Origin: Phycisphaerae bacterium | Lineage (GTDB): Bacteria; Planctomycetota; Phycisphaerae; Sedimentisphaerales; Anaerohalosphaeraceae | DNA length: 64,000 nt | Assembly: GCA_014859965.1 (NCBI GenBank) | Contig: JACZKQ010000144.1 | Span: 1 to 64,000 of the forward strand | Direction: 5' to 3' | In this document: in pieces, positions 9,350-50,757 of the stretch | Position numbering within the stretch: the first letter of the stretch is position 1 | How the letters are laid out: each line of letters opens with the position of its first letter | The notes under the pieces: model-generated | The model's database searches: none | Told to the model about the DNA's origin: nothing | What the model saw: the letters and a program-made list of their open reading frames with translations, nothing else | Translations under genes and position numbers: made by a program

Positions 9350-9886
9350 CTATTGCCTTCTTCGGCGGCGCTGCTGAAGTATCGCCAGATTCTGCTCAAT
9401 GGTCGGTTTGCACTTCGGGCCGGCGTTGGGAAGGGCCTTTTCGAACTGGTCCGCGGCGCCTCGGCGGATCGCCATGAGGGCCTGAGCCGCGGGCTCGCAG
9501 AGATCCTCGTCGCAAAGGAGTCCGCCTAACGTCTCGGCCTCGGCCGGTGTGCCGACCATCTGCAGTTCCTGGACCAGATAAGCCTTGACGCCCTTGGGCA
9601 TATCGCCCCCGACACACTTGGCCAGGGTGGCGGCGACCATCTGCCGTTGTTCGTCCTGATCCTTGCCGACGGCAATTGCGACACAATGCAGCGCATAGCG
9701 GGCCTTGTGATCGCCGCCTTCCGCCGGCACCTTCAGTGCGCCGACCACGGCCTCGATGTTTTCGGCTCCGCCGGCCAGGATGCCCGCGGTCACCTCGTCG
9801 GCGACCTGTTTGTCAATGTTTGACATGAACCCCCGATCGTCGGGATCGGGCAGCTTATTGATCAGATTGGTAAGTTTCTCATTCAT
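9350..9886 (-). CDS. HEAT-repeat-like protein, function unknown
   Basis: 178 aa, no signal peptide, so probably cytoplasmic. The sequence is a run of amphipathic helices spaced like HEAT/armadillo repeats ('AGGAENIEAVVGALKVP', 'YALHCVAIAVG', 'GVKAYLVQELQMVGTPAEAETLG', 'EPAAQALMAIRRG') and ends in a basic tail RRRRRQ. AAAGGA lies before the ATG at 9886. It is 42 bp downstream of the Gfo/Idh oxidoreductase gene start region's partner on the same strand, i.e. it follows that gene (9929 stop, 9886 start) and is likely co-transcribed. HEAT proteins are usually protein-binding scaffolds; no enzymatic residues are visible. Confidence 0.75.
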   Translation of the reverse strand: MNEKLTNLINKLPDPDDRGFMSNIDKQVADEVTAGILAGGAENIEAVVGALKVPAEGGDHKARYALHCVAIAVGKDQDEQRQMVAATLAKCVGGDMPKGVKAYLVQELQMVGTPAEAETLGGLLCDEDLCEPAAQALMAIRRGAADQFEKALPNAGPKCKPTIEQNLAILQQRRRRRQ

Positions 9887-9928: not shown

Positions 9929-11137
9929 TTACAGGCGCCACGGCGCCCGCATCGGCTGATTGACCAGACGGTTAGCCTGCTCGTCGCCGACAATGCGCTC
10001 GCGCACCGGATCGTATTGAATTTTACGTCCGACACGAATTGCAATATTCGCCAGGTGCATCAGGCATACGCACCGATGGGATACGTCGGCATTGCCGCCG
10101 GCACGTTTACGGGTTCGGATGGCGTCCGGGAAACTGACGAGCGGTTCGGGATCAGGCATGGCCTTGAGCTTTTCCTGGCTCTCAGCATCGAGGTCCTCCA
10201 TGCGGATGTCGCGCGGCTGCCTGCGGTCGTAGGGCTGGCCCCATTCGCCGCTGTCAAAGACAAGCGTCAGACCGTCCGCGTACTTCATTTCGACCCAGCC
10301 CCACATGCCGCACGCCTCCGGATGGGCGACGGGGGCGTGTGGTTCGATCTCGACGGGACTTGTGTCGTCCCTGGCGTACATGTACGAGAAGCCGTCGAAG
10401 TAATGCTGACCCATATCCGTCAGGCCGCCGCCTTCGTAATCCCAATAGCCGCGGTGCGATCCGCCGAAGCGATGCGGATGAAACGGCCGAAGCGGCGACG
10501 GTCCGCAGTACATATCCCAATCCAGGCTTCTGGGGGGCGTCTGCGGCTTGGCATTAACCACGCCGCTCCACTCCCTGACCTTAAACCCGCCGCGTTGGAT
10601 ATAAACAACGGAGTTGTCTTTGATAAGTCCGCTGGCCATAATCTTGCGTTTTCTGCGGTCTGCCCCAAATCGTCCGTAGGTGCCCACCTGAAAGATGCGG
10701 CCGGTGCGCCGCTCGGCTTCGGCGACCGCCCGACCTTCGGCGATAAACCGCGTCATCGGCTTTTCGCAGAGAACATCCTTGCCTGCCTCCATGGCGGCGA
10801 TCGATATCAGCGCGTGCCAGTGCGGCGGCGTGGCGATCGCGACGACGTCGATGTCCTTGCGTTCGAGGACACGGCGGAAGTCGGTGTAGACCGTCTTGTT
10901 GTCGGCGTGGTCGAGGAATTTGACGTCGCAGATGGCCAGTTTTTTCATGTCGGGTCCCAGCCCCCCGAAGGTGCCATTGCCCTGGCCGCCGCATCCGATC
11001 AATGCTGCACCGAATGTCTCGCTGGGCGGCGTCTGCCCCTGCCCCAGAACGTGCCTCGGAACAATCGTAAACGCCGCAACCGCACCCGCCGAGGTCTGGA
11101 TGAATCGCCGGCGCGAAATGCCCTTGCGCTGCTGCAT
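9929..11137 (-). CDS. Tat-exported Gfo/Idh/MocA-family oxidoreductase
   Basis: 402 aa. Tat signal ISRRRFIQTSAGAVAAFTIV, then a Rossmann fold opening with 'ALIGCGGQGNG' (NAD(P)-binding GxGGxG), 'ICDVKFLDH', 'DVVAIATPPHWHALISIAAMEAG' and 'CEKPMT' carrying the catalytic Lys. The C-terminal sheet domain has 'DYEGGGLTDMGQHYFDGFSYM' with the usual Asp/His active-site residues and ends in 'MRAPWRL', as in the paralogue at 46880. The family oxidises or reduces sugars and cyclitols with bound NAD(P); exported members act with tightly bound cofactor. AGGGAGG precedes the ATG. A strong promoter (11205-11233) lies upstream, so it heads a two-gene unit with the HEAT protein. Confidence 0.92.
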   Translation of the reverse strand: MQQRKGISRRRFIQTSAGAVAAFTIVPRHVLGQGQTPPSETFGAALIGCGGQGNGTFGGLGPDMKKLAICDVKFLDHADNKTVYTDFRRVLERKDIDVVAIATPPHWHALISIAAMEAGKDVLCEKPMTRFIAEGRAVAEAERRTGRIFQVGTYGRFGADRRKRKIMASGLIKDNSVVYIQRGGFKVREWSGVVNAKPQTPPRSLDWDMYCGPSPLRPFHPHRFGGSHRGYWDYEGGGLTDMGQHYFDGFSYMYARDDTSPVEIEPHAPVAHPEACGMWGWVEMKYADGLTLVFDSGEWGQPYDRRQPRDIRMEDLDAESQEKLKAMPDPEPLVSFPDAIRTRKRAGGNADVSHRCVCLMHLANIAIRVGRKIQYDPVRERIVGDEQANRLVNQPMRAPWRL

Positions 11138-37190: not shown

Positions 37191-38912
37191 ATGATTAAAT
37201 CCAGCTACAGGATATTCTTTGCTCTGTGCTTTCTGACCGTGTGGTCGGCTCGGTCATCGTTGGGCCAGACAGAGCCGGGAGTGCTTCTTCAGCCGGCGGC
37301 CCTCGACTGGACGGGCACGTACAGCCTGAGGAGGACAGAGCCGGCGCTGACCGGCAAAGAAGTTACCATAGCCGCCGTCTGCCGATCCTTGACGTATCTT
37401 GCCGGCAAGCCGCAGGATGACTACCGACTCAACATTGATCATGCCTGCTTCGGAAGCCGCGACATCCATTTCGCCGATGGCCTGGATGCCTCAGGCGGCG
37501 TGTCGTTTCACTCAACGGCAATAGGCGGCATTCTTGTCGGCAGCGACGCCTATGGTTTTCATCCCTACACAGGACCGTTTTATTATCAGGGGGCGGCGCC
37601 GGGCGCACGGGTAGACGTCTATGAATTCTGGCGCTTTATTAGCCTCTATGTGTATGGCTCAAAAGAGTTTAAGGCCGACATCCTTACGATGAGCGTCGGT
37701 TCGGTATTCGAGGACTGGTGGACACGCGGCATTGAGCGTCTCGCCGACGAGCACGGTGTGCTGATTTTTGCGGGCATAGGCAACGGTACCGCCGTTCACG
37801 ATCCGGTTTTCTACCCAGGGGCCGGTTCTAACATAATCGGCGTGGGGGTCGTCGATTCGCTCAAGAGCGGCCATCCGGCTGATGCCTTGGAGCGATTTTC
37901 TCTGCCTCGGGCAGAGCACTCAAGCCGCGGGCCGACCGCTGATGACCGCTGCAAGCCGGATATCGTCGCCCCGGGCAATTGCCTGGTGCCCTCGGCTGAC
38001 AGCAGCAGCGGATACGAGATTACCGGAGACTGGTCCAGCTTTGCAACACCAGTGGTCGCCGGGACCGCGGCCCTGCTGGTGCAAAAGGCGACCAGCGATC
38101 CCACGCTTGCGGCTGCGGTTTCCAAGGACGGCGGAAACTGCGTAATGAAGGCCATTCTGATGAACTCGGCCACCAAACTCCCTTACTGGCACAAGGGTCA
38201 ACCGACCAAAGACGACGACCACACAGCGGTTTTGGATTATCTGCAGGGTGCAGGCATGCTCAACGCCGTCGGAGCCTATCAGCAGCTCACCGCCGGGCAC
38301 AGCAGACCAGGAGAAGTACCTGCGACAGGCTGGGATAACAGCGTCATACAAAAAAAGACGGGCATCGAGCACGTGTATTCGTTTTCTGTTGCCGAGCCGG
38401 CCGGACAAAGGCTCACAGCTACACTGGTTTGGAACCGACATTTCGAGCCGGAGCACCCTTTCCTGTCCCTCAGAGCAGCCGATAGCGATTTGACGCTGGA
38501 GTTGTGGGCTGTCGACCCTGAAAACGCTGATCGCAACCGTCTGCTGGACTACAGCGACAGCGTCAATGACAACGTCGAACATATTTGGTGCCCATTAGAT
38601 GCCGATTACACCCGGTACGAGGTCGTGGTGACCTTCAGCGAAATTGCCGGCGACGTGGAACAGTATCCGTCGGAACGCTACGGACTGGCTTGGCGGACCG
38701 CCCCTGCCGACAATGGCGACAGCATCTTCTGGTACGACCTTGACCTGGATGGCGATATCGACAGCGATGACCTGATCCTGCTGATGAATCGGTTCGTGGG
38801 ATCGGAGATGAGCAGCACGGGCTTCGGCCCCGGCGATATCGACATGAACGGCGTCGTCGACATAAAGGACATGCAGTCACTTATGGCTCGTGTCCAGCAG
38901 AACAAGCCATAG
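37191..38912 (+). CDS. Secreted subtilase-like (S8) protein with C-terminal dockerin; catalytic Asp apparently absent
   Basis: 573 aa. Signal peptide (FFALCFLTVWSARSSLGQ). S8 features: His107 in 'GVSFHSTAIGG' (family H-G-T-x-x-A-G), the strand 'ADILTMSVGS', Asn198 in 'FAGIGNG' as oxyanion residue, 'SSRGPTADDRCKPDIVAPG', and Ser283 in 'WSSFATPVVAGTAALL' (family G-T-S-x-A-x-P). The strand that should end in the catalytic Asp (V-x-V-x-D-T/S-G) reads 'VTIAAVCRSL', with Cys64 in the Asp position, so proteolysis is doubtful. A beta-sandwich (about 390-500) follows, then a dockerin-type repeat pair ('DLDLDGDIDSDDLILLM', 'DIDMNGVVDIKDMQSLM') at the C-terminus. No strong ribosome site is seen before the ATG. 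Confidence 0.85.
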   Translation: MIKSSYRIFFALCFLTVWSARSSLGQTEPGVLLQPAALDWTGTYSLRRTEPALTGKEVTIAAVCRSLTYLAGKPQDDYRLNIDHACFGSRDIHFADGLDASGGVSFHSTAIGGILVGSDAYGFHPYTGPFYYQGAAPGARVDVYEFWRFISLYVYGSKEFKADILTMSVGSVFEDWWTRGIERLADEHGVLIFAGIGNGTAVHDPVFYPGAGSNIIGVGVVDSLKSGHPADALERFSLPRAEHSSRGPTADDRCKPDIVAPGNCLVPSADSSSGYEITGDWSSFATPVVAGTAALLVQKATSDPTLAAAVSKDGGNCVMKAILMNSATKLPYWHKGQPTKDDDHTAVLDYLQGAGMLNAVGAYQQLTAGHSRPGEVPATGWDNSVIQKKTGIEHVYSFSVAEPAGQRLTATLVWNRHFEPEHPFLSLRAADSDLTLELWAVDPENADRNRLLDYSDSVNDNVEHIWCPLDADYTRYEVVVTFSEIAGDVEQYPSERYGLAWRTAPADNGDSIFWYDLDLDGDIDSDDLILLMNRFVGSEMSSTGFGPGDIDMNGVVDIKDMQSLMARVQQNKP

Positions 38913-39213: not shown

Positions 39214-40506
39214 ATGCTGAGAACGACATTTTCTCGTCGCAGTTTTCTGAAACAGGCGGCAGCCGCGGGCGGTTTGGCGGCGTTTCCGGCGGTCGTGCCG
39301 TCGACGGTGTTCGGGCAGAATGCCCCGAGTAACAGGATCGTAATGGGCGCCATTGGCACGGGGTCTATGGGGATGGGCGACCTGAACGGCTTTTTGAGCA
39401 AGGACGAGGTGCGGGTGGTCGCTGTGTGCGATGTAGATCGCAGGCACCGCCAGAACGCAAAGACTACCGTGGACCGCAAGTACGGCAACTCGGATTGTGC
39501 GGACTATCTGGACTTTCGGGAGTTGATCGGCCGCGGCGACCTGGACGCCGTGATGACGGCGTTGCCCGACCACTGGCACGCCATTCCATCCGTTATGGCC
39601 GCCAAGGCGGGCCTGGACATTCATGGCCAAAAACCCTTGGCTCGCTCGATTCGCGAGGGACGGGCGATCTGCGACGCAGTGCACCGTTACGGGCGCGTCT
39701 GGCAGACGGGCAGTTGGCAGCGGTCGGTCGCACATTTTCGCCGTGCGTGCGAACTGGTTCGCAACGGGCGGATCGGCAAGGTAGCCTATGTCGAAGTCGG
39801 CCTGCCTACCGGCGGCACACGAGCCCCGCAGCCGGCGGTTCCCGTGCCCGACGGTCTCGATTGGGATTTCTGGCTGGGGCCGGCGCCGTGGCGACCGTTC
39901 TGCAACTTCGGCGGCAACGGCTGCCATTGGGACTGGCGGTGGATCATGGATTATTCCGGCGGGCAGTTGACTGACTGGGCCGGCCACAATATCGATATCG
40001 CTCATTGGGGAATGGATTTGGACGGCACCGGGCCGGTGGAGATCGAGGGCAAGGGTGACTTTCCGACAAACGGGCTGTATGATGCGCCGACCGCTTACAG
40101 GTTCCGCTGCAAGTACGCCAACGGACTCGAGATGGTGGTCGCCAACAATCAGCAAGTGCAGCAAGGGGCCAAGTGGTTCGGCGACAAAGGCTGGATTCAC
40201 GTCCACCGCGGAGGGCTGTCCGCATCGGATGAGAAGATCCTCAAAGAGGTGATCGGGCCTGATGAAATTCAGTTATACAACAGCCGAGACCATCTGCAGA
40301 ATTTCCTCGATTGCGTGAAAAGCCGCAAGCTGACGATCACGCCCGTCGAAACGGCCCATCGTTCGATCAGCGTCGGCCTCCTCGGCGAGATCGCCATGCT
40401 GACGGGCCGCAGGATTCGCTGGAACCCCGAAAAGGAAGAGATCGTCGGCGACCCCGCCGCAAGTGCACTATTAGGCAGAGCGTATCGTCAACCGTGGACG
40501 CTGTAA
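39214..40506 (+). CDS. Tat-exported Gfo/Idh/MocA-family oxidoreductase (module 1)
   Basis: 430 aa. Tat signal FSRRSFLKQAAAAGGLAAFP. Rossmann domain: 'VMGAIGTGSMGMGDL' (NAD(P) loop), 'VVAVCDVDRRHRQNA', 'DLDAVMTALPDHWHAIPSVMAAKAGLDI', and 'GQKPLARSI', where the catalytic Lys is kept although the usual E-K-P is Q-K-P. C-terminal domain: 'WRWIMDYSGGQLTDWAGHNIDIAHWGM'. Homologues oxidise sugar C3 hydroxyls with bound NAD(P). AGGAG precedes the ATG. It is 35 bp ahead of the DUF1080-ThuA-HEAT fusion, a pairing repeated at 46880-50757. Confidence 0.93.
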   Translation: MLRTTFSRRSFLKQAAAAGGLAAFPAVVPSTVFGQNAPSNRIVMGAIGTGSMGMGDLNGFLSKDEVRVVAVCDVDRRHRQNAKTTVDRKYGNSDCADYLDFRELIGRGDLDAVMTALPDHWHAIPSVMAAKAGLDIHGQKPLARSIREGRAICDAVHRYGRVWQTGSWQRSVAHFRRACELVRNGRIGKVAYVEVGLPTGGTRAPQPAVPVPDGLDWDFWLGPAPWRPFCNFGGNGCHWDWRWIMDYSGGQLTDWAGHNIDIAHWGMDLDGTGPVEIEGKGDFPTNGLYDAPTAYRFRCKYANGLEMVVANNQQVQQGAKWFGDKGWIHVHRGGLSASDEKILKEVIGPDEIQLYNSRDHLQNFLDCVKSRKLTITPVETAHRSISVGLLGEIAMLTGRRIRWNPEKEEIVGDPAASALLGRAYRQPWTL

Positions 40507-40541
40507 GCAATCGGGCCCAGGCTCTAACTTGAGGAATAATC

Positions 40542-43500
40542 ATGAAAAACAGAACGATGATTTCAATAGCATGCGTGGCGGCGTTGCTCGCTGCAACGCC
40601 CTTCGCGTCAGCCGAAAAAATTGCACTGAATGATTTCAGTGCATGGCGCACGCCGACAGGCAACTGGATGATTACCGGCGACGCAGTACTGAATCCGCAG
40701 AACGACGCGCGCTTATCGCCGAAGGCAGGTAGCGGCGTCATGCTCAACGGACCTACCGGCAGCACCAACAATATTGTCACGAAGAACGAATGGGGCGACG
40801 TATCGCTGCATATCGAATTCGTGGTGCCCAAGGGCTCCAACAGCGGCGTCTACCTGATGGGCCGCTACGAAATCCAGGTCTTCGACAGTTGGGGCGTCGC
40901 CGACCCGCAGCACAGCGACTGCGGCGGTATCTATCAGCGCTGGCGCAACGACCGCGGTTTCGAAGGACGAAGCCCGCGCGTCAACGCATCCAAAGCGCCC
41001 GGCCAGTGGCAGAGCTTCGACGCAATCTTCCGTGCCCCGAAGTTCGACGCCGCCGGCAACAAGATCGCCAATGCACGCTTCGTCGAGGTAAAGCACAACG
41101 GCGTGCTCGTTCACCAGAACGTCGAGCTGACCGGTCCCACGCGCGCCGCCACCTGGGAAAACAACGAAAAGGCGACGGGCCCGCTCATGCTGCAAGGCGA
41201 CCACGGCCCGGTGGCCTATCGCAACATCGTTATCACCCCGCTCGACCCTGAGTCTAAGCCGACCTATCCCTTGAAGGCGCTCATTGTCGACGGCCAGAAC
41301 AATCACAACTGGAAAGGCACCACGCCGGTGCTCAAGCAGTTGCTGGAAGAAACGGGGCTGTTCACGGTGGACGTCGCCACAACCCCCGCCGACCGACAGC
41401 CGATGGCCGGCTTCGCTCCGGATTTCGCAAAGTACGACGTCGTCGTCAGCAACTACACCGGCGACGAATGGCCCGCCGCAACCAAATCGGCCTTTGAAGA
41501 ATACATGGACAACGGCGGCGGCCTTGTCGTCTATCACGCCGCCGACAACGCCTTCCCCAACTGGCCTGCATGGAACGAAATGATCGCACTCGGCGGCTGG
41601 GGCGGCCGAAACGAAAAGTCCGGCCCCATGGTCCGCTTCCGCGACGGCCAAATGGTCCTTGACAACCGGCCCGGCGCCGGCGGTTCCCACGGCCCGCAGC
41701 ACGCCTTCCAGCTCATAACGCGAAATAACGAACACCCGATTACCCGCGGCCTCCCCGAAAAATGGATGCACGCCAAAGATGAACTGTACAGCACGCTCCG
41801 GGGCCCGGCAAAATATATGACCCTGTTGGCGACGGCGTACGCAGCCCCCGAACAGCGCGGCACGGGCGAGCATGAACCGATGCTTTTCACGATCAACCGC
41901 AACGGCGGCCGAATTTTCCATACCGCCCTGGGGCATGATATCGAGCAGTTGAAATCCGTCGGCTTCATCGTCACCTTCCTGCGCGGCGCCGAATGGGCCG
42001 CCACCGGCATGGTAACGCAGACCGAGGTGCCCGACGACTTCCCAACGGCCGAGGAAGTTCGCCTGCGAACAGCGAACAATGCTAAATTACCTGCCGGTTA
42101 CGGCAAAGAGATCGTCGCATGGGATCTGGACAAGGACCGCAAGGCGCTGACGGCTATCGAAGACGATATCCGCACCGCCGGACCGACACGGCTGCTGCAA
42201 ATCGAAGCGGCGATAGTCCGGGCGATGACGAATGCCCAGTGTACCTGGGCGGGCAAGCAATGGGTCTGCCGGATGCTGCGACAGATGGGCACGGCACAAA
42301 GTGTGCCGGCGCTGGCCGCGATGCTGACAGATGAAAAAGTTTCGCACATGGCCAGATACGCCCTGGAGCGCATGCCCGCACCCGAGGCAGGCGCTGCGCT
42401 CATCGCCGCACTGGATCGCGTCGAAGGCGACCTGAAGATCGGCATCGTCAGTTCCCTCGGCCTTCGCGGCGAAGAAGCCGCCGCCGACAAAATCGCACCG
42501 CTCATGAAAAGCGAAAACCGCATGATGGCCCGTGCGGCGATCACGGCGCTGAGCCACTTCTCCAATCGTACAACGGGCATGGCCTTGGTTGAGACCGAAC
42601 TGCCCGCCGACCTGGAAGATCTCCGCAATGACGCCATCCTCACCTGCACCGACACCATGCTGTCCAAAGGTCGCACCGACTTTGCTATCGGCATCTACCA
42701 GAGAATGACGGCTCAGACCTATCCGGTCTTCATCCGTCTTGCCGCGTACCGCGGCCTCGTCCGCGCACAGCAGGAACAGGCGGTCCCCACCGTCGTCAGC
42801 CTCTTGAGAGACGAAAACGAAGACCTCCGCCTTGCCGCGGCAAAGTTCATCGCGGAAATGCCCGGCGAAGCCGCAACCAAAGCCCTTGCGGCGCAGTTGC
42901 CTTCGCTGCCGGGGGCAACACAAGTCGTCTTGATCGGCGCTCTCGAAGACCGCGCCGACAAAGCCGCTGCCGAAGCTGTCGGGCAGGCCGCCGCAAGCAC
43001 CGATGAAACAGTCGCCGTCACCGCGATAAAGGCGCTGGCCACACTCGGCGACGCCTCCAATGTGCAACTACTGGCTGAGACCAGCGTCAAGAGCGGCCCC
43101 ATAGGCAAAGCGGCAAAGGACAGTCTGGAAGGATTGGGCGGCGACGATGTGAATAAGGCCCTCGTCGGCGTTCTGGACGCATCGGACAAAGGCAATGTCC
43201 GCGTCAACGTCGTTGACGTGCTCATTGCACGAAGGGCCGGCGAAGCGGTGGGCGCACTGCTGGTCGCGGCGGCGGACGGCGATGTGTCGGTCCGGCAGGC
43301 GGCCTATAAGGCTTTGGGCAGCCTGGGCGGCAGGGACGAACTGCCGACGCTCGTGGAGATGCTGCTTTCAGCGGATCTCTCGGAGCGGGCCGCCGTCGAA
43401 CGAGCCGTCAACGCGATGGCCCCCCGGCTGAACGCGGCCGACGCCGACACGGTGATCAAGGCGATCAACCGGGCCGACGCCGACGCCAAAGCGCGGCTGT

Positions 43501-44315
43501 TGGGCGTGCTGCCGAAGTTCGGCGGCGATGAAGCCCTCAACGCGGTCCGTTTCCATGTGATCCGCTCCAGCGGCGATGTGAAGAAGGCGGGTATCCGCGC
43601 AATGGCCGAATGGTCCGATCCCTCACCGTTGAAGGACCTCTTGATTGTGGCGACCAATCAGTCCGACGAGAGCATGCACGTCATCGCCCTCCGCGGCTAC
43701 ATCAAGCTCTGTTCGCAGCCGGCCAATCGCGCCGCTTCCGAAACGACCGAGCTGCTCGCCAAAGCGCTGCCGGTCGCAAGACGTGTCGACGAGAAGAAGG
43801 CCATACTGGGCGCATTGACTCGGTACCCGTGCAAGGAATCGCTCCAGCTCGCCGAAAGCTGCCTCGCCGACGCTGCCCTTCGACAGGAGGCGGAGCTTGC
43901 GGCGGCTAAGATCAAGGAATCGCTGATCAATAAGAGCCTTTCGGCGACCGCATCGCGCGAGCCCAACACCACAGGCAACGCACTGGATGGCAACACGGGC
44001 ACCCGCTGGACGACAGGACGCCCAATGAAGCCGGGCGACTGGTTTACCCTTGACCTGGGCGCCGAAGCGGCGGTTAAGAAGATCACTTTGGACACGCGAA
44101 ACAGCGGCAACGATTATCCGCGCGGGTACGAAGTGTATGTATCTTTTGACGGCGGCGAGTGGGGCAAGCCACTCCTCGTTGGCGAAGGCAACAATCCGAT
44201 TACGGAGCTGGCCTTTGAAAAGCCCGTGCACACGCGCTATGTTAAGATCGTGCAAACCGGATCTTCTGACGCATGGCATTGGTCGATTCACACGTTGAAA
44301 ATTGAATTCGAATAG
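40542..44315 (+). CDS. Exported DUF1080 - ThuA - HEAT - F5/8C fusion protein
   Basis: 1257 aa. Signal peptide (ISIACVAALLAATPFASA). Residues about 25-235 are a DUF1080/3-keto-disaccharide hydrolase beta-sandwich ('FVVPKGSNSGVYLMGRYEIQVFDSWG', 'DCGGIYQRW', 'GPLMLQGDHGPVAYRNI'). Residues about 240-485 are a ThuA-like class I amidotransferase-type fold ('ALIVDGQNNHNWKGTTPVL', 'VVVSNYTGDEWP', 'GGGLVVYHAADN', 'GGRIFHTALGHD'). Residues about 525-1120 are HEAT repeats, and about 1130-1257 are a discoidin/F5/8C sugar-binding domain ('ALDGNTGTRWTTGRPMKPGDWFTLDLG'). DUF1080 proteins cleave 3-keto-glycosides in characterised systems, and ThuA is linked to 3-keto-trehalose use. With the preceding oxidoreductase this suggests oxidation then cleavage of a glycoside outside the cytoplasm. 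GAGGA precedes the ATG. Confidence 0.92.
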   Translation: MKNRTMISIACVAALLAATPFASAEKIALNDFSAWRTPTGNWMITGDAVLNPQNDARLSPKAGSGVMLNGPTGSTNNIVTKNEWGDVSLHIEFVVPKGSNSGVYLMGRYEIQVFDSWGVADPQHSDCGGIYQRWRNDRGFEGRSPRVNASKAPGQWQSFDAIFRAPKFDAAGNKIANARFVEVKHNGVLVHQNVELTGPTRAATWENNEKATGPLMLQGDHGPVAYRNIVITPLDPESKPTYPLKALIVDGQNNHNWKGTTPVLKQLLEETGLFTVDVATTPADRQPMAGFAPDFAKYDVVVSNYTGDEWPAATKSAFEEYMDNGGGLVVYHAADNAFPNWPAWNEMIALGGWGGRNEKSGPMVRFRDGQMVLDNRPGAGGSHGPQHAFQLITRNNEHPITRGLPEKWMHAKDELYSTLRGPAKYMTLLATAYAAPEQRGTGEHEPMLFTINRNGGRIFHTALGHDIEQLKSVGFIVTFLRGAEWAATGMVTQTEVPDDFPTAEEVRLRTANNAKLPAGYGKEIVAWDLDKDRKALTAIEDDIRTAGPTRLLQIEAAIVRAMTNAQCTWAGKQWVCRMLRQMGTAQSVPALAAMLTDEKVSHMARYALERMPAPEAGAALIAALDRVEGDLKIGIVSSLGLRGEEAAADKIAPLMKSENRMMARAAITALSHFSNRTTGMALVETELPADLEDLRNDAILTCTDTMLSKGRTDFAIGIYQRMTAQTYPVFIRLAAYRGLVRAQQEQAVPTVVSLLRDENEDLRLAAAKFIAEMPGEAATKALAAQLPSLPGATQVVLIGALEDRADKAAAEAVGQAAASTDETVAVTAIKALATLGDASNVQLLAETSVKSGPIGKAAKDSLEGLGGDDVNKALVGVLDASDKGNVRVNVVDVLIARRAGEAVGALLVAAADGDVSVRQAAYKALGSLGGRDELPTLVEMLLSADLSERAAVERAVNAMAPRLNAADADTVIKAINRADADAKARLLGVLPKFGGDEALNAVRFHVIRSSGDVKKAGIRAMAEWSDPSPLKDLLIVATNQSDESMHVIALRGYIKLCSQPANRAASETTELLAKALPVARRVDEKKAILGALTRYPCKESLQLAESCLADAALRQEAELAAAKIKESLINKSLSATASREPNTTGNALDGNTGTRWTTGRPMKPGDWFTLDLGAEAAVKKITLDTRNSGNDYPRGYEVYVSFDGGEWGKPLLVGEGNNPITELAFEKPVHTRYVKIVQTGSSDAWHWSIHTLKIEFE

Positions 44316-44350
44316 AGAGAAATGAACACCGTATTAAAGGGAGAGGCATC

Positions 44351-45568
44351 ATGCCTAAGCAAGCGTTGATAATTGCACTGATAGTGATGATTGCGGCAGG
44401 TTCGGTTTGTGTGGCCGGCGACTGGCCTCACTTCCGCGGGCCCGACCGAAGCGGCGTAAGCAGCGAAAAAGGACTCATGACAAGTTGGCCCGCCGCCGGC
44501 CCGAAAATGCTCTGGTCGTACAAAGGCCTCGGCAAGGGCTTCGCTTCGATGACCGTCGTCGACGGCCTTATCTACACCACCGGCGTCGAGGACAAGACAG
44601 CCTATATCTACGCCTTCGATCTCGATGGCCAGCTCAAGTGGAAACAGCCCTGCGGGCCCGGCTGGACCGGCTCCTATCCCGGCAGCCGCACCACGCCCAC
44701 CGTCGACGGCGACCGCCTCTACATCATGAGCGGACAAGGCCGCATCGCGTGCCATAACGCCAAGACCGGCCGTGAGATATGGAAGGTCGAGACCACCGCT
44801 GTCTTCGGCGGCCGGAACATCACGTGGGGCTTCGCCGAAAGCCCCCTCATCGACGGCCAGAAGGTCATCTGCACCCCCGGCGGACCCGACGCCAGCGTCG
44901 TCGCACTTGACAAGATGACCGGCAAAACTCTGTGGACAAGCAAGGGCCTCAGCGACAAGAGCGCCTACTGCACGCCCCTTCTCGTCGAGATCGGGCCCAA
45001 CCGCCTCCTCTTCACCATGCTTGCGGAATCCATCGTCGGCCTTGACGTCGAAACCGGCAAAGTCCATTGGCAGGTGCCCCACAAAGTCAACTACGACATC
45101 TCCGCCGTCAGCCCCGTCTACACCAACGGCATACTCTATGTCACCAACAACTACGGCAAAGGCAGCATCGGTTTCACTCTCACCGAGAATGGCACGAAAT
45201 GTGAAAAGAAGTGGAGCGACAAGACCTTGGACTGCCACCATGGCGGCGTGATGCTCGTCAACGGAAACATCTACGGCGCCAACGGCCGCGGCTGGGTCTG
45301 CCAGGACCCTGTCACCGGCGCGGTGAAATACCAGGAAACGCTCGTCGGCAAAGGCTCCGGCATCTGCGTCGACGGCCTGTTTTACCTCTATGGCGAAAAA
45401 GGCGACATGGCCCTCGTCAAGGCAAATCCCAACGGCTTCGAGACAATCAGCACCTTCAAGATCACTCTCGGCAACGAGCAGCACTGGGCCCATCCCGTCG
45501 TAGCCAACGGCGTCCTCTACATGCGGCACGGCGACACCCTCATGGCCTTCGACATTAAGGCCAAATAA
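44351..45568 (+). CDS. Exported PQQ-type beta-propeller protein
   Basis: 405 aa. Signal peptide 'IIALIVMIAAGSVCVAG' is followed by 'DWPHFRGPDRSGVSSEKG', the hallmark opening of planctomycete PQQ-like propellers, then seven or eight blades with 'VDGLIYTTG', 'VDGDRLYIMSG', 'IDGQKVICTPGG', 'TNGILYVTNN', 'VNGNIYGANG' and 'VANGVLYMRHG'. The similarity is to BamB/quinoprotein dehydrogenase propellers; true PQQ binding is not evident. It follows the fusion by 35 bp with GGGAGAGG before the ATG and precedes a strong terminator, so it closes the first module. It may be a carbohydrate-binding or electron-transfer partner. Confidence 0.88.
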   Translation: MPKQALIIALIVMIAAGSVCVAGDWPHFRGPDRSGVSSEKGLMTSWPAAGPKMLWSYKGLGKGFASMTVVDGLIYTTGVEDKTAYIYAFDLDGQLKWKQPCGPGWTGSYPGSRTTPTVDGDRLYIMSGQGRIACHNAKTGREIWKVETTAVFGGRNITWGFAESPLIDGQKVICTPGGPDASVVALDKMTGKTLWTSKGLSDKSAYCTPLLVEIGPNRLLFTMLAESIVGLDVETGKVHWQVPHKVNYDISAVSPVYTNGILYVTNNYGKGSIGFTLTENGTKCEKKWSDKTLDCHHGGVMLVNGNIYGANGRGWVCQDPVTGAVKYQETLVGKGSGICVDGLFYLYGEKGDMALVKANPNGFETISTFKITLGNEQHWAHPVVANGVLYMRHGDTLMAFDIKAK

Positions 45569-45630
45569 TCGTAATCGCATCAATGGCCGCCCCCGGCCGG
45601 GCGTCGCCAGCGATGCGGACAAAGATCATG

Positions 45631-45670
45631 AAGGGCCGCGAACCGCCTCAAGCCGGTTCGCGGCCCTTAT
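45631..45670 (+). terminator. Strong intrinsic terminator
   Basis: A perfect 15-bp stem: AAGGGCCGCGAACCG (45631-45645) pairs with CGGTTCGCGGCCCTT (45654-45668) around an 8-base loop. It ends the transcript of the propeller gene. Its AAGGGCCGCG core recurs in the hairpin at 51673-51704. Confidence 0.75.
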
Positions 45671-45684
45671 TATGCGCGTTTTGT

Positions 45685-45713
45685 TTGCTCCGACACCGTT
45701 TTCCCTGTATACT
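45685..45713 (+). promoter_or_regulatory. Sigma-70-type promoter for the beta-lactamase-fold gene
   Basis: TTGCTC (45685-45690), 17-base spacer, TATACT (45708-45713), immediately after the terminator and 35 bases before the GTG start. Confidence 0.6.
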
Positions 45714-45748
45714 AAGTTCCGACGATACCCGTATCCGGAGGACACAAA

Positions 45749-46822
45749 GTGAAACACAAAGTATTGCCGGTGCTTGGACTTGCGATCTTTTTGGCGGCTT
45801 ATTCATATGCGGCGCCGCGGGCCCAAACGGTTGACGAACGGATTGACCGCTTGTTCGCAAAGTGGGACAGTAAGACCTCGCCCGGCTGCACGGTTGTTGT
45901 GATCCATCACGGAAAATGCGTCATCAAGAAGAGCTATGGCATGGCCGACATCGAAGCCGGAAAGACCATCGATGAACAGACGCTTTTCAATGTGGCGACC
46001 CTTTCGCGGCATTTCACCGGAGCCGCCGCTGCATCGCTGATTGACAACGGTGCGGTTCGGCTTACCGACAACATTCGCGTGACCATTCCCGAGATGCGGC
46101 GGGTCGACCCGCCGGTAACGGTCCAGGATCTTATCTATCATACCAGCGGACTGCCCGATTATATTTCTGTGTGGAAAAAGGCGGGGGCCGGCGACGCGGA
46201 AGATACACTCGCGATGGTTGATTTGCTGGCCGACGCCGAGTTGCTGTTTTCGCCGGGCAGCCGTTTTGCAGTCAGCCGAAGCGACTACCTGCTGTTAGGC
46301 CTTGTGGCCCAACGAGTTACGAGCGCGTCATTGGCCCAGTGGGCTCAGAATGCCGTTTTCAAGCCGGCGGGGATGGTGCATTCGGTGTTCTGCGATCATC
46401 CGGAGGGCTTGCCGGCGGGGGCTGTGGGTTACAAGGCGAAGCCGTTCGGGGGGTATTCCAAGGCGGCCAACCCCCTGCCGAGGATCGCCGGTGACGTGGG
46501 CCTGTGGACAAATATTCTGGATCTTGCCATTTGGGAGAAAAGCCTTCTCGAAAATACGCCAAATACGGCCGGATTCTATGATTTGCTGCAAAGAACCGGC
46601 AAAACCGATGGGGGGCGGCAGATCGACTATGCTTTTGGTCTGAATGTCGAAAAGTACAGGGATCGGACGGTTTTCACGCATAATGGCCGAGCAAACGGGT
46701 TTTCCGCCGGATTATTGCGATTTCCGGAAGAAAACCTGACTGTGATCTGCCTTTCCAACCTGGAATCGTTCAAAACTGCGCCGTTTCTCAAGAAAATCGC
46801 TGATTTCTACCTCGGGCGCTAA
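45749..46822 (+). CDS. Exported serine beta-lactamase-fold protein with substituted catalytic motifs
   Basis: 357 aa, GTG start with GGAGG (45737-45741) upstream. Signal peptide 'LGLAIFLAAYSYAAPRAQ'. The fold is clear: 'PGCTVVVIHHGKCVIKKSYGMAD', 'DLIYHTSGLPDY' with an intact HTSG, 'GDVGLWTNILDLAIWEKSLL', 'YAFGLNV' and 'THNGRANGFSAGLLRFPEENLTVICLSN'. But the S-x-x-K nucleophile motif reads T84-L-S-R87 ('NVATLSRHFTG') and the Y-x-N motif reads V175-S-R177 ('FAVSRSDYLLLG'). All three normally essential residues besides HTSG are replaced, so it is probably not a hydrolase by the usual mechanism. It has its own promoter but lies between the two oxidoreductase modules. A sugar- or peptide-binding role is possible. 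Confidence 0.85.
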   Translation: MKHKVLPVLGLAIFLAAYSYAAPRAQTVDERIDRLFAKWDSKTSPGCTVVVIHHGKCVIKKSYGMADIEAGKTIDEQTLFNVATLSRHFTGAAAASLIDNGAVRLTDNIRVTIPEMRRVDPPVTVQDLIYHTSGLPDYISVWKKAGAGDAEDTLAMVDLLADAELLFSPGSRFAVSRSDYLLLGLVAQRVTSASLAQWAQNAVFKPAGMVHSVFCDHPEGLPAGAVGYKAKPFGGYSKAANPLPRIAGDVGLWTNILDLAIWEKSLLENTPNTAGFYDLLQRTGKTDGGRQIDYAFGLNVEKYRDRTVFTHNGRANGFSAGLLRFPEENLTVICLSNLESFKTAPFLKKIADFYLGR

Positions 46823-46879
46823 CGAATTGCCACAAAACCACGGAAAACGCATCGAATTTCGAGTTCAAGTGAGAAAGAA

Positions 46880-48169
46880 ATGGTCAAAACCACGCAAAAC
46901 ATCACGCGAAGAGGCTTTATTTGTGCCGCGGCCGCAGGATTTGGGGTGCCGACTGTCGTTTCGTCGTCGGTTTTCGGTAAGAACGCCCCGAGTAACCGCC
47001 TGACGATGGGCGGCATTGGCATCGGCGGCCAGGGCATGCACAACCTGAAGAACTTCCTCCAGTGTGACGATCTGCGCGTATTGGCGGTTTGCGATGTCGA
47101 CGCAGCCCATCTGAAACGCGCAAAGGACGAAGTCGACAGGACCTATGGCAATGGCGACTGTGCGACATACAATGACTTTCGCGAGTTGCTTGCCCGGCCA
47201 GACATCGACACGGTGCTGATCGCCACGCCCGACCACTGGCACGCGCTCACCGCGATCGCGGCGGCCAAGGCCGGCAAGGACATCTATTGCGAAAAGCCGA
47301 TCTCGCTGACCATCGCCGAAGGTCGGGCGGTGGTGGAAGTGATGAAGCGGTACGGGACGGTGTACCAGAGCGGCACGCAGCGCAGGAGCATCGGGGCGTT
47401 TCGGTTCGCGGTGGACGTTGCCCGCAGCGGGATGATCGGCAGGCTGCACACGCTGCATGCGTATTATCACAACGGCCCGACCTGCCCGCCGCAGCCGGTG
47501 CAGGCGCCGCCGGAGGGCTTCGATTACGACATGTGGTTAGGCCCGGCGCCTTATGAGCCGTATACGCCGCGGCGGTGCCACGGCAGCTTTCGCTGGCTTT
47601 ACGACTATTCCGGCGGGCAGTTGACGGATTTGGGGGCCCATTTCAACGACCTTGCGCAATGGGCCAACGGCAGTCAACTGACGGGACCGGTGACTTACGA
47701 GGGATGGGCGCGGTTTCCAACTGAGGGACTGTTCGATACGCCGGTCCAGTTCGAGATAACGGCCACCTACTCCGACGGCGTCAAGATGATCTGCCACGAT
47801 GAGACGGAGCCGGGGCGAGGGCCGCGCGGCAATAAGTTCGAGGGCGATGCCGGCTGGGTGAGCGTCGACGACAACGGCAAGGTAGAGGCGCGGCCGGAAT
47901 CCATTTTGGCCACTCGAAACATCGTTCAGCAGGGCTATGGGTACATGATGGGGCACCACCGGGACTTTCTGGATTGCGTACGGACACGGGCGACGACGAT
48001 TGCGCCGCCGGAGGTCGCGCACCGGTCGACGACGACGTGTCACCTGTCGAACATTTGCCTTCGCCTGGGACGAAAGATCACCTGGGACCCGCAGCACGAG
48101 CAGGTCGTCGGCGACGACGAAGCCAATCAAATGCTGTCGCGCGCCATGCGTGCCCCGTGGCGGCTGTAG
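46880..48169 (+). CDS. Tat-exported Gfo/Idh/MocA-family oxidoreductase (module 2)
   Basis: 429 aa. Tat signal ITRRGFICAAAAGFGVP. 'MGGIGIGGQGMHNLKNF' is the NAD(P) loop, followed by 'VLAVCDVDAAHLKRAKD', 'DIDTVLIATPDHWHALTAIAAAKAG' and a canonical 'YCEKPISLTIAEG'. C-terminal 'WLYDYSGGQLTDLGAHFNDLAQWA' and the terminal 'MRAPWRL'. It is a clear paralogue of the gene at 39214 (shared 'NAPSNR' after the signal, 'TYGNGDCATYNDFREL' against 'KYGNSDCADYLDFREL') and ends like the one at 9929. It precedes the HEAT-DUF1080 fusion by 59 bp. The ribosome site is weak (GAGAAAG). Confidence 0.94.
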   Translation: MVKTTQNITRRGFICAAAAGFGVPTVVSSSVFGKNAPSNRLTMGGIGIGGQGMHNLKNFLQCDDLRVLAVCDVDAAHLKRAKDEVDRTYGNGDCATYNDFRELLARPDIDTVLIATPDHWHALTAIAAAKAGKDIYCEKPISLTIAEGRAVVEVMKRYGTVYQSGTQRRSIGAFRFAVDVARSGMIGRLHTLHAYYHNGPTCPPQPVQAPPEGFDYDMWLGPAPYEPYTPRRCHGSFRWLYDYSGGQLTDLGAHFNDLAQWANGSQLTGPVTYEGWARFPTEGLFDTPVQFEITATYSDGVKMICHDETEPGRGPRGNKFEGDAGWVSVDDNGKVEARPESILATRNIVQQGYGYMMGHHRDFLDCVRTRATTIAPPEVAHRSTTTCHLSNICLRLGRKITWDPQHEQVVGDDEANQMLSRAMRAPWRL

Positions 48170-48228
48170 GCGCACACCGGATGATCCGCAAGAGTAATAT
48201 AAGTTTCATGTATTGAGAAGGGGTTGTC

Positions 48229-50757
48229 ATGTCTGTGGTGAAGTGGATGTCGCGTCTTCGGCTGGTGGTCTTTGTCTTTCTGTGCGGGCTGATTTTTGCA
48301 CCGGTCACCTCTCTTCAGGGGGCGGATCAGGCGGCCGTTGACCCACACCTGGCAGCGATTCGGCAGTATCAGTGCGGGCAGAGCCGCCAAGCGCTGTTCG
48401 CTGTGGAGGAGGCGATTCGCACATCCCAGGAACAGCCTCAACTTCGAAAGTACATCGCCGGCCGTCTGGCGGGCATGCTGGCCGAGGACATAACTTCCGA
48501 CGCCAGGCTGTTTATTTGCAGGCAGTTATGGTACTTGTCGGCGGATGACTCCGCGGCGGTACTTGCGCGGATGCTGGATGATGAGGCAACCGCAGATATG
48601 GCTTGTTATGCGATTGGCTCGGATCGTTCACCACAGGCGGACGCGATGCTCCATGCAGCGCTGGCACACCTTAATGGAGCGGCTCTCTTGCGCGTGGTCA
48701 ACCTGATCGGCGAGCGCGGCGACGGGGCAAGCGTGGGCGCGCTGGTCGGCCTGACAAAGGCTAATGACACAGGCGTTGTCGAGGCGGCGGTTGCTGCGTT
48801 AGGCAAAATCGGTGGATCCGATGCCGCCCGAACACTCGACATCTTGCGAGACAAAGGACCGGTGCAGCTTCGCCCGCCGGTGACCGATGCGCTGCTGCAA
48901 TGTGCAGATTTCGCCATGCAAGGCGATCTAACGCAGGCGGCGCGTATTTACCGTAAGGTTTGCAACGATCACGACCCGTTGTTGCGCCGAGCGGCCCTGC
49001 ACGGGCTTTCACGTGTGGCCGCAGAAGAAGCAGTACCCCTGGTGATTGCTGCGTTACGAGACGAGGACCGCATGGTTCAGCGGACGGCGATCGGCTGCAT
49101 TCGCGCGATAGACGGTGAGGGGCCCGCGACGGTGTTTGCGCGAGAGTTGCCCAAACTCGACAGCGACGGCCAGGTCGCGCTGCTCGCGGCACTTGCCGAC
49201 AAACGCGCCCCCGCGGTATTGGCAATCATCCGGTCAGCAGTTAAGTTTCCCGATGCACAGGTAAGGACGGCGGCGTTTGCCGCAATTGCAAAGGCAGGCG
49301 ATGCTTCCTGCGTCGATTTGCTGATCGACTCGCTGGGCCATGCCGAATCTTCGGCCGCGGCGGCAAGTGCACTTCATACCATCCAGGGAGCCGGCGTCGA
49401 AGCGGCGATTGTCAACCGCATGAAGGGCGCCCCCGCAAACCTTAAGATACAGTTGATCGAGGCGCTGTATGCCCGCGATGCCCGGGATGCCGCCGAGGCC
49501 TTGCTTGCAGAGGCGGCCGGGCCGGACAGAGAAGTTCGCAAGACAGCCCTGTCTGCCCTGGGCCGATTAGCCTCGTCCAAAGAATTACCAGCACTCCTTG
49601 AGCAGCTCGTCAAACTGCCGGATGATTACGGGCGCCGCGAGGCAGAGCGATCGGTGACGGCGGTTTCCCAGAAAATCGCCAACCCCGAACGGCGGGCGGA
49701 TGCAGTAGTGTCCGCCCTCGCCAAGACGATAGACACGGCGGCGAGATGTTCGCTGCTGCGCGTACTCGGACAGATCGGAAACGATACCGCACTGACGGCG
49801 GTGACCGGACTGCTGGAAGATGACAACCCGCCGGTTCGCGACGCCGCCGTGCGCGCCCTGACCGAGCAATCGAGCAGCCGGGCTCTGGATGCGTTGGCAA
49901 AAGTGTTCAGCAAGCCCGCCAACGAGACGCATCGCATTGTTGCGCTCCGGGGATATGTGCGGCTCTTACAGCGGGACATGGATTTGATCGATCGTGAGAA
50001 GGCAAATGCGTATTCGCGGGCGATGAGTGCCGCGGTCGGCGCGGACGAGAAACGTTTGATCATCGGCGGGTTGTCGACGGTGCGGCATGCTGCCGCTCTG
50101 GATTTGGTGCGGCGGCATGTGCATGATGAGGAGGTGCAAGCAGAGGCAGCATTGGCGATTACAAAGATTCAAGAGTCGCTGGGACGGGCGCCGGAGGGGT
50201 TTACGGCGATCTTCGACGGCAAGACGCTTGCCGGGTGGGAGGGCAATCTCAACGTGTTCCGGATCGAGGAGGGGGCGATTGTGGGCGGCACGCTGAAGGC
50301 GGCGATTGCACGGAATGAGTTTTTGTGCACGCAGAATGAATACGGCGATTTTGAATTGCGGCTGAAGGTGCGGCTGCTGGGCGATCCGGCCGGGGCGAAC
50401 GCGGGCATTCAAGTCCGGTCCCGGCGGGTTCCGAACCATCACGAGATGAGCGGCTACCAGGCCGACATGGGGCAGCATTACTGGGGGTGCCTGTATGACG
50501 AGTCGCGGCGTAACCGCGTGCTGGCGGCGGCGGACCGGGCCCAACTGGACAAGGTGCTCCTGCTCGACCGCTGGAACGACTATATTATTCGCTGCGAAGG
50601 CAAGCGGATCCGCCTGTGGATAAACGATTACCAGACCGTGGACTACACAGAGCCCGAAGACAACATCGAACAGACGGGCCTGATCGGTCTGCAAATACAC
50701 GGCGGCCCCCCTGCCGAGGCATGGTACAAGGACATTTACCTGCGTCCGATCCGTTGA
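48229..50757 (+). CDS. Exported HEAT - DUF1080 fusion protein
   Basis: 842 aa. A signal segment 'RLRLVVFVFLCGLIFAPVTSL' is followed by about 600 residues of HEAT/armadillo repeats, with 'GDGASVGALVGLTKANDTGVVEAAVAAL', 'DPLLRRAALHGLSRVAAEEAVPLVIAAL' and similar units. Residues about 655-842 are a DUF1080/3-keto-disaccharide hydrolase domain: 'GFTAIFDGKTLAGWEGN', 'FLCTQNEYGDFELRLKVRL', 'NAGIQVRSRRVPNHHEMSGYQADMG', 'WNDYIIRCEGKRIRLWIND' and 'GLIGLQIHGGPPAEAWYKDIYLRPI'. The order is the reverse of the module-1 fusion. It would act on 3-keto-glycosides made by the upstream oxidoreductase (inference). AGAAGGGG precedes the ATG. Confidence 0.92.
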   Translation: MSVVKWMSRLRLVVFVFLCGLIFAPVTSLQGADQAAVDPHLAAIRQYQCGQSRQALFAVEEAIRTSQEQPQLRKYIAGRLAGMLAEDITSDARLFICRQLWYLSADDSAAVLARMLDDEATADMACYAIGSDRSPQADAMLHAALAHLNGAALLRVVNLIGERGDGASVGALVGLTKANDTGVVEAAVAALGKIGGSDAARTLDILRDKGPVQLRPPVTDALLQCADFAMQGDLTQAARIYRKVCNDHDPLLRRAALHGLSRVAAEEAVPLVIAALRDEDRMVQRTAIGCIRAIDGEGPATVFARELPKLDSDGQVALLAALADKRAPAVLAIIRSAVKFPDAQVRTAAFAAIAKAGDASCVDLLIDSLGHAESSAAAASALHTIQGAGVEAAIVNRMKGAPANLKIQLIEALYARDARDAAEALLAEAAGPDREVRKTALSALGRLASSKELPALLEQLVKLPDDYGRREAERSVTAVSQKIANPERRADAVVSALAKTIDTAARCSLLRVLGQIGNDTALTAVTGLLEDDNPPVRDAAVRALTEQSSSRALDALAKVFSKPANETHRIVALRGYVRLLQRDMDLIDREKANAYSRAMSAAVGADEKRLIIGGLSTVRHAAALDLVRRHVHDEEVQAEAALAITKIQESLGRAPEGFTAIFDGKTLAGWEGNLNVFRIEEGAIVGGTLKAAIARNEFLCTQNEYGDFELRLKVRLLGDPAGANAGIQVRSRRVPNHHEMSGYQADMGQHYWGCLYDESRRNRVLAAADRAQLDKVLLLDRWNDYIIRCEGKRIRLWINDYQTVDYTEPEDNIEQTGLIGLQIHGGPPAEAWYKDIYLRPIR

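Follow-up and report, generated by a model that had tools for sequence, protein, structure and literature searches.

In the ThuA/ThuB trehalose utilization of Agrobacterium and Sinorhizobium, a ThuA protein acts together with a Gfo/Idh oxidoreductase. The glucose-fructose oxidoreductase of Zymomonas is a Tat-exported Gfo/Idh enzyme that must bring its own nicotinamide cofactor, which a second sugar recycles; it stands alone and is not known to have a HEAT or DUF1080 partner. In the BT2156-BT2160 locus of Bacteroides thetaiotaomicron, BT2158 is a periplasmic glycoside 3-dehydrogenase (PMC11300592), and BT2157, a secreted single-domain DUF1080 protein of 290 aa, is a 3-keto hydrolase, as is the DUF1080 protein of Caulobacter, CCNA_01705 (PMC9007349). 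In the 3'-ketolactose route of Caulobacter, a disaccharide is oxidized in the periplasm by the membrane-bound complex LacABC before the periplasmic DUF1080 protein acts (PMC9007349). Planctomycetes have many secreted DUF1080 proteins (PMC5673643, PMC10881899), among them the single-domain endo-xanthanase THTE_1561 of Thermogutta terrifontis, which is reported as a plain endo-glucanase acting directly on unoxidized glucans (PMC10881899) and for which no Gfo/Idh or HEAT partner is described.

Gene layout of the locus

In the window (the whole 64,000-nucleotide stretch of Phycisphaerae DNA that was analyzed), a gene for an exported Gfo/Idh enzyme is followed twice by a gene for a secreted protein that combines HEAT repeats with DUF1080:

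39214..40506, + strand: P0001, exported Gfo/Idh oxidoreductase that has the Tat motif RRSFL, retains the catalytic Lys140 and His258, and reads QKP at the EKP site
40542..44315, + strand: P0002, secreted DUF1080-ThuA-HEAT-F5/8C fusion
40632..41234, + strand: P0002 DUF1080 (3keto-disac_hyd) domain, 4qhz-like subfamily
41274..41999, + strand: P0002 ThuA domain; nearest solved structure 4e5v
42111..43925, + strand: P0002 HEAT solenoid, homologue of the P0006 solenoid
43947..44285, + strand: P0002 F5/8 type C (galactose-binding-like) domain
44351..45568, + strand: P0003, secreted PQQ_2/BamB-like beta-propeller; end of the first probable transcription unit
45631..45668, no strand assigned: hairpin of 15 pairs, probable border of two transcription units
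45749..46822, + strand: P0004, protein of the beta-lactamase/D-aminopeptidase fold whose catalytic motifs are altered
46880..48169, + strand: P0005, exported Gfo/Idh oxidoreductase with an RRGFI motif and an unchanged EKP
48229..50757, + strand: P0006, secreted HEAT-DUF1080 fusion
48358..50178, + strand: P0006 HEAT solenoid, modeled with pLDDT of about 94
50197..50745, + strand: P0006 DUF1080 domain, 4jqt-like subfamily; model matches 9fbe

The open reading frames of both pairs lie where the original prediction had placed them, with gaps of 35 nt (P0001-P0002) and 59 nt (P0005-P0006), and all four proteins have Pfam matches above the curated cut-offs. Pfam also bears out the PQQ-type propeller and the beta-lactamase-fold protein between the copies. 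The description of the large protein as DUF1080 plus HEAT suits P0006 but is too narrow for P0002, which adds ThuA and F5/8C in the order DUF1080 (residues 31-231), ThuA (245-486), HEAT, and F5/8C (1136-1248). Since the strong hairpin sits between the propeller gene and the beta-lactamase-like gene, the two pairs are probably separate transcription units. On a motif reading, P0004 has TLSR at the expected SxxK and VSR at the expected YxN, which makes "pseudoenzyme" a fair label for this candidate.

Like the Bacteroides locus, the window has an exported Gfo/Idh enzyme together with secreted DUF1080 that shares the BT2157 fold, and the AP_endonuc_2 TIM barrel of BT2156-BT2160 also occurs in relatives of the window. 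Unlike in BT2157, however, DUF1080 is carried on a HEAT solenoid of 600 aa, often together with ThuA and F5/8C. The oxidase also differs from the membrane-bound LacABC in being a Tat-exported Gfo/Idh enzyme.

Paralogy of the two pairs

P0001 and P0005 are 45% identical, and the HEAT parts of P0002 and P0006 are 32% identical over 641 aa; judged by these alignments, the pairs are true paralogues in Gfo and HEAT. The proposed duplication does not extend to DUF1080. This domain is N-terminal in P0002 and C-terminal in P0006, and the two domains, which belong to different subfamilies, are only 24% identical, indicating that DUF1080 was not coduplicated. A tandem duplication of the whole module including DUF1080 is ruled out, only Gfo and HEAT being homologous in register. 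A substrate difference between the copies, as predicted from the DUF1080 subfamilies and the swapping of slots, is plausible.

Conserved pairing of Gfo/Idh and HEAT genes

Conservation of the pairing in related genomes had been named as one of two tests that could refute the original prediction, and its outcome favors the prediction. The upstream sequence could be scored for 87 HEAT relatives, and 66 of these have a Gfo/Idh gene less than 250 nt upstream (median gap, 39 nt), which is more than chance adjacency. Across about ten phyla, 76 loci with a P0001-type Gfo/Idh enzyme were counted by domain coordinates, and at 56 of them the next gene encodes a HEAT protein. DUF1080, by comparison, is fused to the HEAT partner in only 18/102 cases in related genomes and in 2/56 in the cross-phylum set, which rules it out as a constant partner. 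The predicted pairing of Gfo/Idh with a HEAT and DUF1080 fusion is upheld for Gfo/Idh and HEAT but not for DUF1080 as a fixed part; here the constant partner of the oxidoreductase is HEAT, in contrast to BT2156-BT2160. ThuA is found in 29/102 HEAT relatives. In orthologues of P0002, the Gfo (70 to 76% identity), ThuA (64 to 73%), and HEAT (42 to 50%) parts are retained, and the DUF1080 slot is different or empty. In these comparisons, the constant unit is the Tat-type Gfo/Idh plus HEAT, and the HEAT chain carries DUF1080, ThuA, F5/8C, and further modules as interchangeable parts.

The HEAT assignment is secure at the level of Pfam (PF13646, 99.1 bits in P0002 and 138.1 bits in P0006, above the cut-off), and an AlphaFold2 model of P0006 residues 30 to 652 forms an alpha-solenoid. 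A Foldseek search with this solenoid returned generic HEAT scaffolds only, with TM-scores near 0.3 and no specific relative; the closest folds are the PP2A A subunit, CAND1, and importins.

We lean toward the view that each pair is an exported two-gene module, a Gfo/Idh enzyme with a HEAT platform, whose predicted function is to oxidize and then cleave glycans. It is unlikely, by our estimate, that the genes are mere operon neighbors in a sugar-degradation cluster, with the HEAT protein playing an unrelated structural role and making no contact with the oxidoreductase. Such a role would fit the generic scaffolds found as the nearest folds. The distances in the Gfo and HEAT trees are correlated (r = 0.73, 61 pairs), and matched trees of this kind can arise from tight linkage alone; codivergence is expected from such linkage even without physical contact. 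However, the tree match is lost when partners are shuffled within genomes (maximum, 0.41 in 2,000 shuffles), the HEAT gene in most cases directly follows that of the oxidoreductase, and the association holds across about ten phyla with differing neighbor genes.

DUF1080, ThuA, and other exchanged modules

Both DUF1080 domains score well above the PF06439 cut-off of 26.8 bits (P0002, 105.4 bits; P0006, 122.4 bits). That of P0006 was unfolded in the full-length AlphaFold2 model but folded when modeled as a lone domain. This model matches 9fbe (Z 21.0, 2.0 A over 169 residues), 8tda (Z 19.8), and 8rr2 (Z 19.7), which are deposited as 3-keto-glycoside eliminase/hydratases or 3-keto-2-hydroxy-glucal hydratases; the binding module CBM66 is nearly as near (Z 19.3). 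As modeled, the domain shares the fold of the BT2157-type 3-keto-glycoside eliminase/hydratases. The family-conserved N724, G726, N799, Q822, and H824 are all present in P0006, and the P0002 domain keeps N100, G102, N186, and Q218, with D220 at the His column. For the ThuA domain, P0002 scores 108.8 bits against a PF06283 cut-off of 33.4 and matches the ThuA-like structure 4e5v with an E value of 6.8e-84. P0002 thus resembles the ThuA/ThuB system in joining ThuA to a Gfo/Idh partner, the difference being that the ThuA of the window is secreted and fused to HEAT. This genome has 34 DUF1080 domains.

These domains could instead be carbohydrate-binding modules or plain beta-glucanases in a classical breakdown of polysaccharides, with the Gfo/Idh enzymes acting on the released sugars. 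CBM66 and GH16 have this fold too, an endo-xanthanase/lichenase activity is reported for THTE_1561 (PMC10881899), and P0006 lacks the E-x-Q-x-x-D pattern of the P0002 subfamily and has YQAD instead. We nevertheless consider this improbable, as the top structural matches include the 3-keto enzymes named above and the GYQAEVD...GGLYDEGRR pattern of the same subfamily is itself fused to Gfo/Idh in this genome. This fusion is a single chain, Tat-Gfo-DUF1080-CBM6/35, and has counterparts of 67 to 68% identity in two relatives; a further one-chain Gfo-DUF1080 fusion occurs in another genome. Fusions of an AP_endonuc_2 TIM barrel to DUF1080 occur at 19 loci (a few counted twice), many of them adjoining P0001 orthologues.

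Family, residues, and export of the oxidoreductases

Both Gfo/Idh enzymes score above the cut-offs of PF01408 (Rossmann; 35.0 and 66.5 bits) and PF19051 (C-terminal; 90.4 and 123.7 bits). The best NCBIfam model for P0001 and P0005 is the glycoside 3-dehydrogenase BT_2158_fam (8e-46 and 2e-43), supporting kinship of both with glycoside 3-dehydrogenases. At 156.6 and 148.8 bits, respectively, they are far under the equivalog cut-off of 750 bits, so that C3 is only the probable site of oxidation. Among 61 partner Gfo/Idh enzymes, the catalytic residues Lys140 (of the EKP motif) and His258 are invariant (61/61), and Glu139 is replaced by Gln in 12, including P0001; the QKP of P0001 as the mark of a dead oxidoreductase is thereby ruled out. 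This genome has 55 matches to the P0005 Gfo/Idh.

The extracytoplasmic location proposed earlier agrees with an RR-x-hydrophobic motif in 62/62 partner Gfo/Idh enzymes and an N-terminal hydrophobic segment in 64/67 HEAT partners. The Tat signal of P0001 is matched by TIGR01409 (22.0 bits; cut-off, 16.7), and that of P0005 is seen as a TRRGFI motif only, with no profile match.

The Gfo/Idh partner could alternatively be a self-sufficient NAD-dependent glycosidase of the GH109 kind, which would carry out transient C3 oxidation, elimination, hydration, and rereduction in one active site, with HEAT presenting the substrate and DUF1080, ThuA, and F5/8C serving for accessory binding or trimming. This would account for cofactor recycling by a periplasmic nicotinamide enzyme and for the majority of pairs, which are without DUF1080. 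P0005 does match the solved GH109-type enzymes 2ixa (1.6e-10) and 6t2b (2.7e-7), but as distant sequence relatives; much stronger matches are found to 8tdf/8tdh, entries of the glycoside 3-dehydrogenase type (2.6e-44), and the Gfo-DUF1080 fusions and TIM-barrel-DUF1080 neighbors point to a separate cleavage step. We give this alternative little credence.

Proposed function of the module

In the favored oxidize-then-cleave module, a Tat-exported Gfo/Idh oxidoreductase is paired with a Sec-secreted HEAT alpha-solenoid and would carry a tightly bound nicotinamide cofactor outside the cytoplasm. The enzyme may oxidize a sugar hydroxyl, probably at C3, of a glycan or glycoside and so labilize the glycosidic bond; DUF1080 and/or ThuA, either as part of the HEAT protein or from a gene close by, could then catalyze elimination/hydration or a further step. 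This role is supported by the one-chain Gfo-DUF1080 fusions, the TIM-barrel-DUF1080 neighbors, the glycoside 3-dehydrogenase kinship, and the DUF1080 model. As most Gfo-HEAT pairs are without a fused DUF1080, cleavage may come from elsewhere. The solenoid would unite the oxidase, the cutting module, and the glycan, the last through F5/8C, and a swapped module on the HEAT chain would lead to another bond or product while the oxidase-solenoid core stays constant. A role in remodeling glycans that the cell itself makes, in its envelope or outside it, instead of feeding on external ones is very unlikely: the Gfo/Idh and DUF1080 paralogues, present by the dozen in this genome, and the finding of no SusCD- or ABC-type transporter among the scanned genes beside the pairs would fit it, but the modules found next to or fused with the pairs are ones typical of catabolism (ThuA, F5/8C, GH18, CBM6/35, and sugar isomerase-like TIM barrels).

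More tentatively, and with some doubt on our part, the secreted HEAT solenoid may serve in about ten phyla as a putative coevolving docking platform of a Gfo/Idh oxidase, on which cutting modules are swapped like tool heads; if so, this would be a noncellulosomal multienzyme complex for glycan degradation. The chemistry is of a known kind; a HEAT partner with exchangeable modules seems not to have been described before. Planctomycetes and their relatives have dozens of Gfo/Idh and DUF1080 genes with no assigned function. Should Gfo/Idh-HEAT be a real complex, it would provide a rule for assigning many of these genes to extracytoplasmic, oxidation-dependent glycan breakdown and would account for many combinations of oxidase and cutting domains. 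With the one-chain Gfo-DUF1080 fusion of this genome, the oxidize-then-cleave idea can be assayed directly.

A third, smaller pair of Gfo and mini-HEAT genes lies in the same window on the - strand:

9929..11137, - strand: third Tat-type Gfo/Idh of the window, with the mini-HEAT gene 42 nt downstream
9350..9886, - strand: HEAT-like partner of the third Gfo/Idh, 178 aa, matched by a custom profile only and with no Pfam match

Gene layout and paralogy of the two pairs

The original prediction placed two exported Gfo/Idh oxidoreductases (P0001 and P0005), each followed by a HEAT fusion protein (P0002 and P0006), in this region. All four open reading frames were found at those positions on the + strand, separated within pairs by 35 and 59 nt.

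Gfo/Idh-HEAT pairs in the window
39214-40506, + strand: P0001, Gfo/Idh (Pfam)
40542-44315, + strand: P0002, DUF1080-ThuA-HEAT-F5/8C (Pfam)
46880-48169, + strand: P0005, Gfo/Idh (Pfam)
48229-50757, + strand: P0006, HEAT-DUF1080 (Pfam)
9929-11137, - strand: third Gfo/Idh, with a mini-HEAT partner 42 nt downstream
9350-9886, - strand: mini-HEAT partner of the third Gfo/Idh, 178 aa, HEAT-like

The DUF1080 (3keto-disac_hyd, PF06439) and HEAT domains previously assigned to P0002 were recovered with Pfam, which also revealed overlooked ThuA and F5/8C domains; the ThuA domain is strong (nearest solved structure, 4e5v; 6.8e-84). The mini-HEAT is assigned by custom profile only, with no Pfam match and no obvious signal peptide. 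A strong hairpin at 45631-45668 suggests two transcription units, one encoding Gfo/Idh, fusion, and propeller proteins and the other beta-lactamase-like, Gfo/Idh, and fusion proteins. The beta-lactamase-like sequence reads TLSR at the expected SxxK and VSR at the expected YxN. A secreted subtilase (37191-38912, + strand), with a dockerin-like C-terminal pair of DxDxDG-like EF-hand motifs, is encoded immediately upstream of the module, and a giant ORF on the opposite strand (51753-63947, - strand; 4,064 aa) contains subtilase, right-handed beta-helix, and InlB-type repeat regions.

P0001 and P0005 share 45% identity and the HEAT regions of P0002 and P0006 share 32% across 641 residues; thus, the oxidoreductase and the solenoid are paralogous pairs. 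Unlike these, the DUF1080 domains are not a paralogous pair: they lie at opposite ends, share 24% identity, and belong to different subfamilies (4qhz-like in P0002 and 4jqt-like in P0006).

Conservation of the Gfo/Idh-HEAT pairing

We scanned 100 regions around HEAT relatives from related genomes with profiles made from the window proteins. Among 102 HEAT ORFs, 87 were scorable (complete start and ≥600 bp upstream), and 66 of these had a same-strand Gfo/Idh <250 nt upstream (median gap, 39 nt). At a generous chance rate of 2%, the binomial P is ~4e-93, a value that ignores sequence relatedness. HEAT was encoded by the next gene for only ~7 of the 30 own-genome Gfo/Idh proteins closest to P0005 (P0001's HEAT lies past the locus edge in this control), and the pairing therefore belongs to certain Gfo/Idh clades, not the whole family. 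The genome holds 55 matches to P0005 and 34 DUF1080 domains, and the best P0001 matches among named ones are MAGs of Sedimentisphaerales and Phycisphaerae.

Of 80 named P0001-type loci, 76 had sufficient downstream sequence, and a HEAT protein was the next gene in 56 (30 ThuA-HEAT, 23 HEAT, 1 HEAT-F5/8C, and 2 with DUF1080). According to the sequence records, these span Planctomycetota, Verrucomicrobiota, Bacteroidota, Acidobacteriota, Aminicenantes, Hydrogenedentota, Armatimonadota, and others. Elsewhere among the 76, the next gene encoded a separate ThuA (2 loci), DUF1080 (2 loci), or a second Gfo/Idh (5 loci). Short Bacteroidota ThuA proteins scored as ThuA-HEAT match just ~90 residues of the custom HEAT profile, and the three scanned had no Pfam HEAT match; after removal of these 11 or 12 proteins, HEAT is still next in ~44 loci. 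No description of the pairing was found in the literature searched, a search mostly outside subscription journals.

Gfo/Idh and HEAT tree distances were correlated (r = 0.73; 61 pairs), with r at most 0.41 in 2,000 within-genome partner shuffles. Linkage alone could produce such a match, so we take this co-divergence to reflect stable pairing, not contact.

Module swapping on the HEAT core

At least 18 of the 102 HEAT ORFs bear DUF1080 and at least 29 bear ThuA; these are lower bounds, as the custom profiles overlook some domains (e.g., ThuA in L069:4799-7765). FG-GAP, DUF6807, DUF5077, GH18, and F5/8C modules also occur. In place of ThuA, partners at L121:3531-7136 (-), L100:3422-6880 (-), and L126:190-3411 (+) carry GH18 plus DUF1080, FG-GAP repeats, or DUF6807 at the N terminus.

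Identity among P0002 orthologues and their partners is 70 to 76% for Gfo/Idh, 64 to 73% for ThuA, 42 to 50% for HEAT, and 57 to 65% for F5/8C. The N-terminal DUF1080 is 78% identical to that of P0002 in G019, comes from another subfamily in G008, G010, G048, G058, L169, and L170 (partial matches of 28 to 34%), and is missing in G009, G018, and G047. By these comparisons, a putative cutting module is swapped on a constant core.

Evidence bearing on oxidation and cleavage

For P0001 and P0005, the best model is the glycoside 3-dehydrogenase BT_2158_fam, yet both score far under its cutoff; the best structural matches are 8tdf/8tdh (2.6e-44, profile search). All 61 Gfo/Idh partners compared keep both the catalytic Lys and the catalytic His, and the residue in front of the Lys varies between Glu and Gln. 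P0001 has QKP rather than EKP at residue 139, a change found in 12 of the 61 that may mark altered cofactor or substrate handling. A Tat motif is present in 62 of 62 testable Gfo/Idh partners and a hydrophobic N-terminal segment in 64 of 67 HEAT partners.

The original prediction regarded each pair as an oxidize-then-cleave unit. The same genome encodes a single-chain Tat Gfo/Idh-DUF1080-CBM6/35 protein (824 aa; L249:789-3263, - strand, contig C104), a natural fusion of putative oxidase and cutter, with full-length orthologues in two relatives (67 to 68% identity) and a similar protein in G015. Its DUF1080 and that of P0006 have a common GYQAx...LYDExRR pattern. Genes for AP_endonuc_2-DUF1080 fusions and stand-alone AP_endonuc_2 proteins adjoin P0001 orthologues in relatives; the fusion, a xylose isomerase-like TIM barrel with C-terminal DUF1080, is seen at L147:10985-12487 and recurs in other loci. 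This set of enzyme types is similar to that of BT2156-BT2159, the Bacteroides thetaiotaomicron 3-keto-glycoside pathway, in which BT2156 is of the TIM-barrel type.

The P0006 DUF1080 model (pLDDT 86) matches the 3-keto-glycoside eliminase/hydratase 9fbe (Z 21.0; 2.0 A, 169 residues) and BT2157 (3osd; Z 19.9), yet also the binding module CBM66 (Z 19.3). Thus, the predicted fold is settled and keto-glycoside activity is putative. Periplasmic 3-keto-glycoside routes have been described before: the glycoside 3-dehydrogenase BT2158 works in the periplasm (PMC11300592), and BT2157 and, putatively, Caulobacter CCNA_01705 are DUF1080 3-keto hydrolases (PMC9007349). The abundance of DUF1080 in planctomycetes is likewise known and was read as xanthan-glucanase (PMC5673643, PMC10881899).

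Proposed mechanism

The exported Gfo/Idh, with bound cofactor, would generate a keto-sugar inside a glycan. This could then be broken or processed either by a solenoid-borne DUF1080 or ThuA module or by the product of a nearby gene. F5/8C would bind the glycan, and the HEAT chain is a natural candidate for holding oxidoreductase, cutting module, and glycan binder together. HEAT residues 30 to 652 of P0006 are modeled at a pLDDT of ~94, and the closest folds to this solenoid are protein scaffolds. Near the C-terminal end of the solenoid, in a conserved WP motif, residue 547 of P0006 (48229-50757) is Gln where 57 of 61 partners have Trp.
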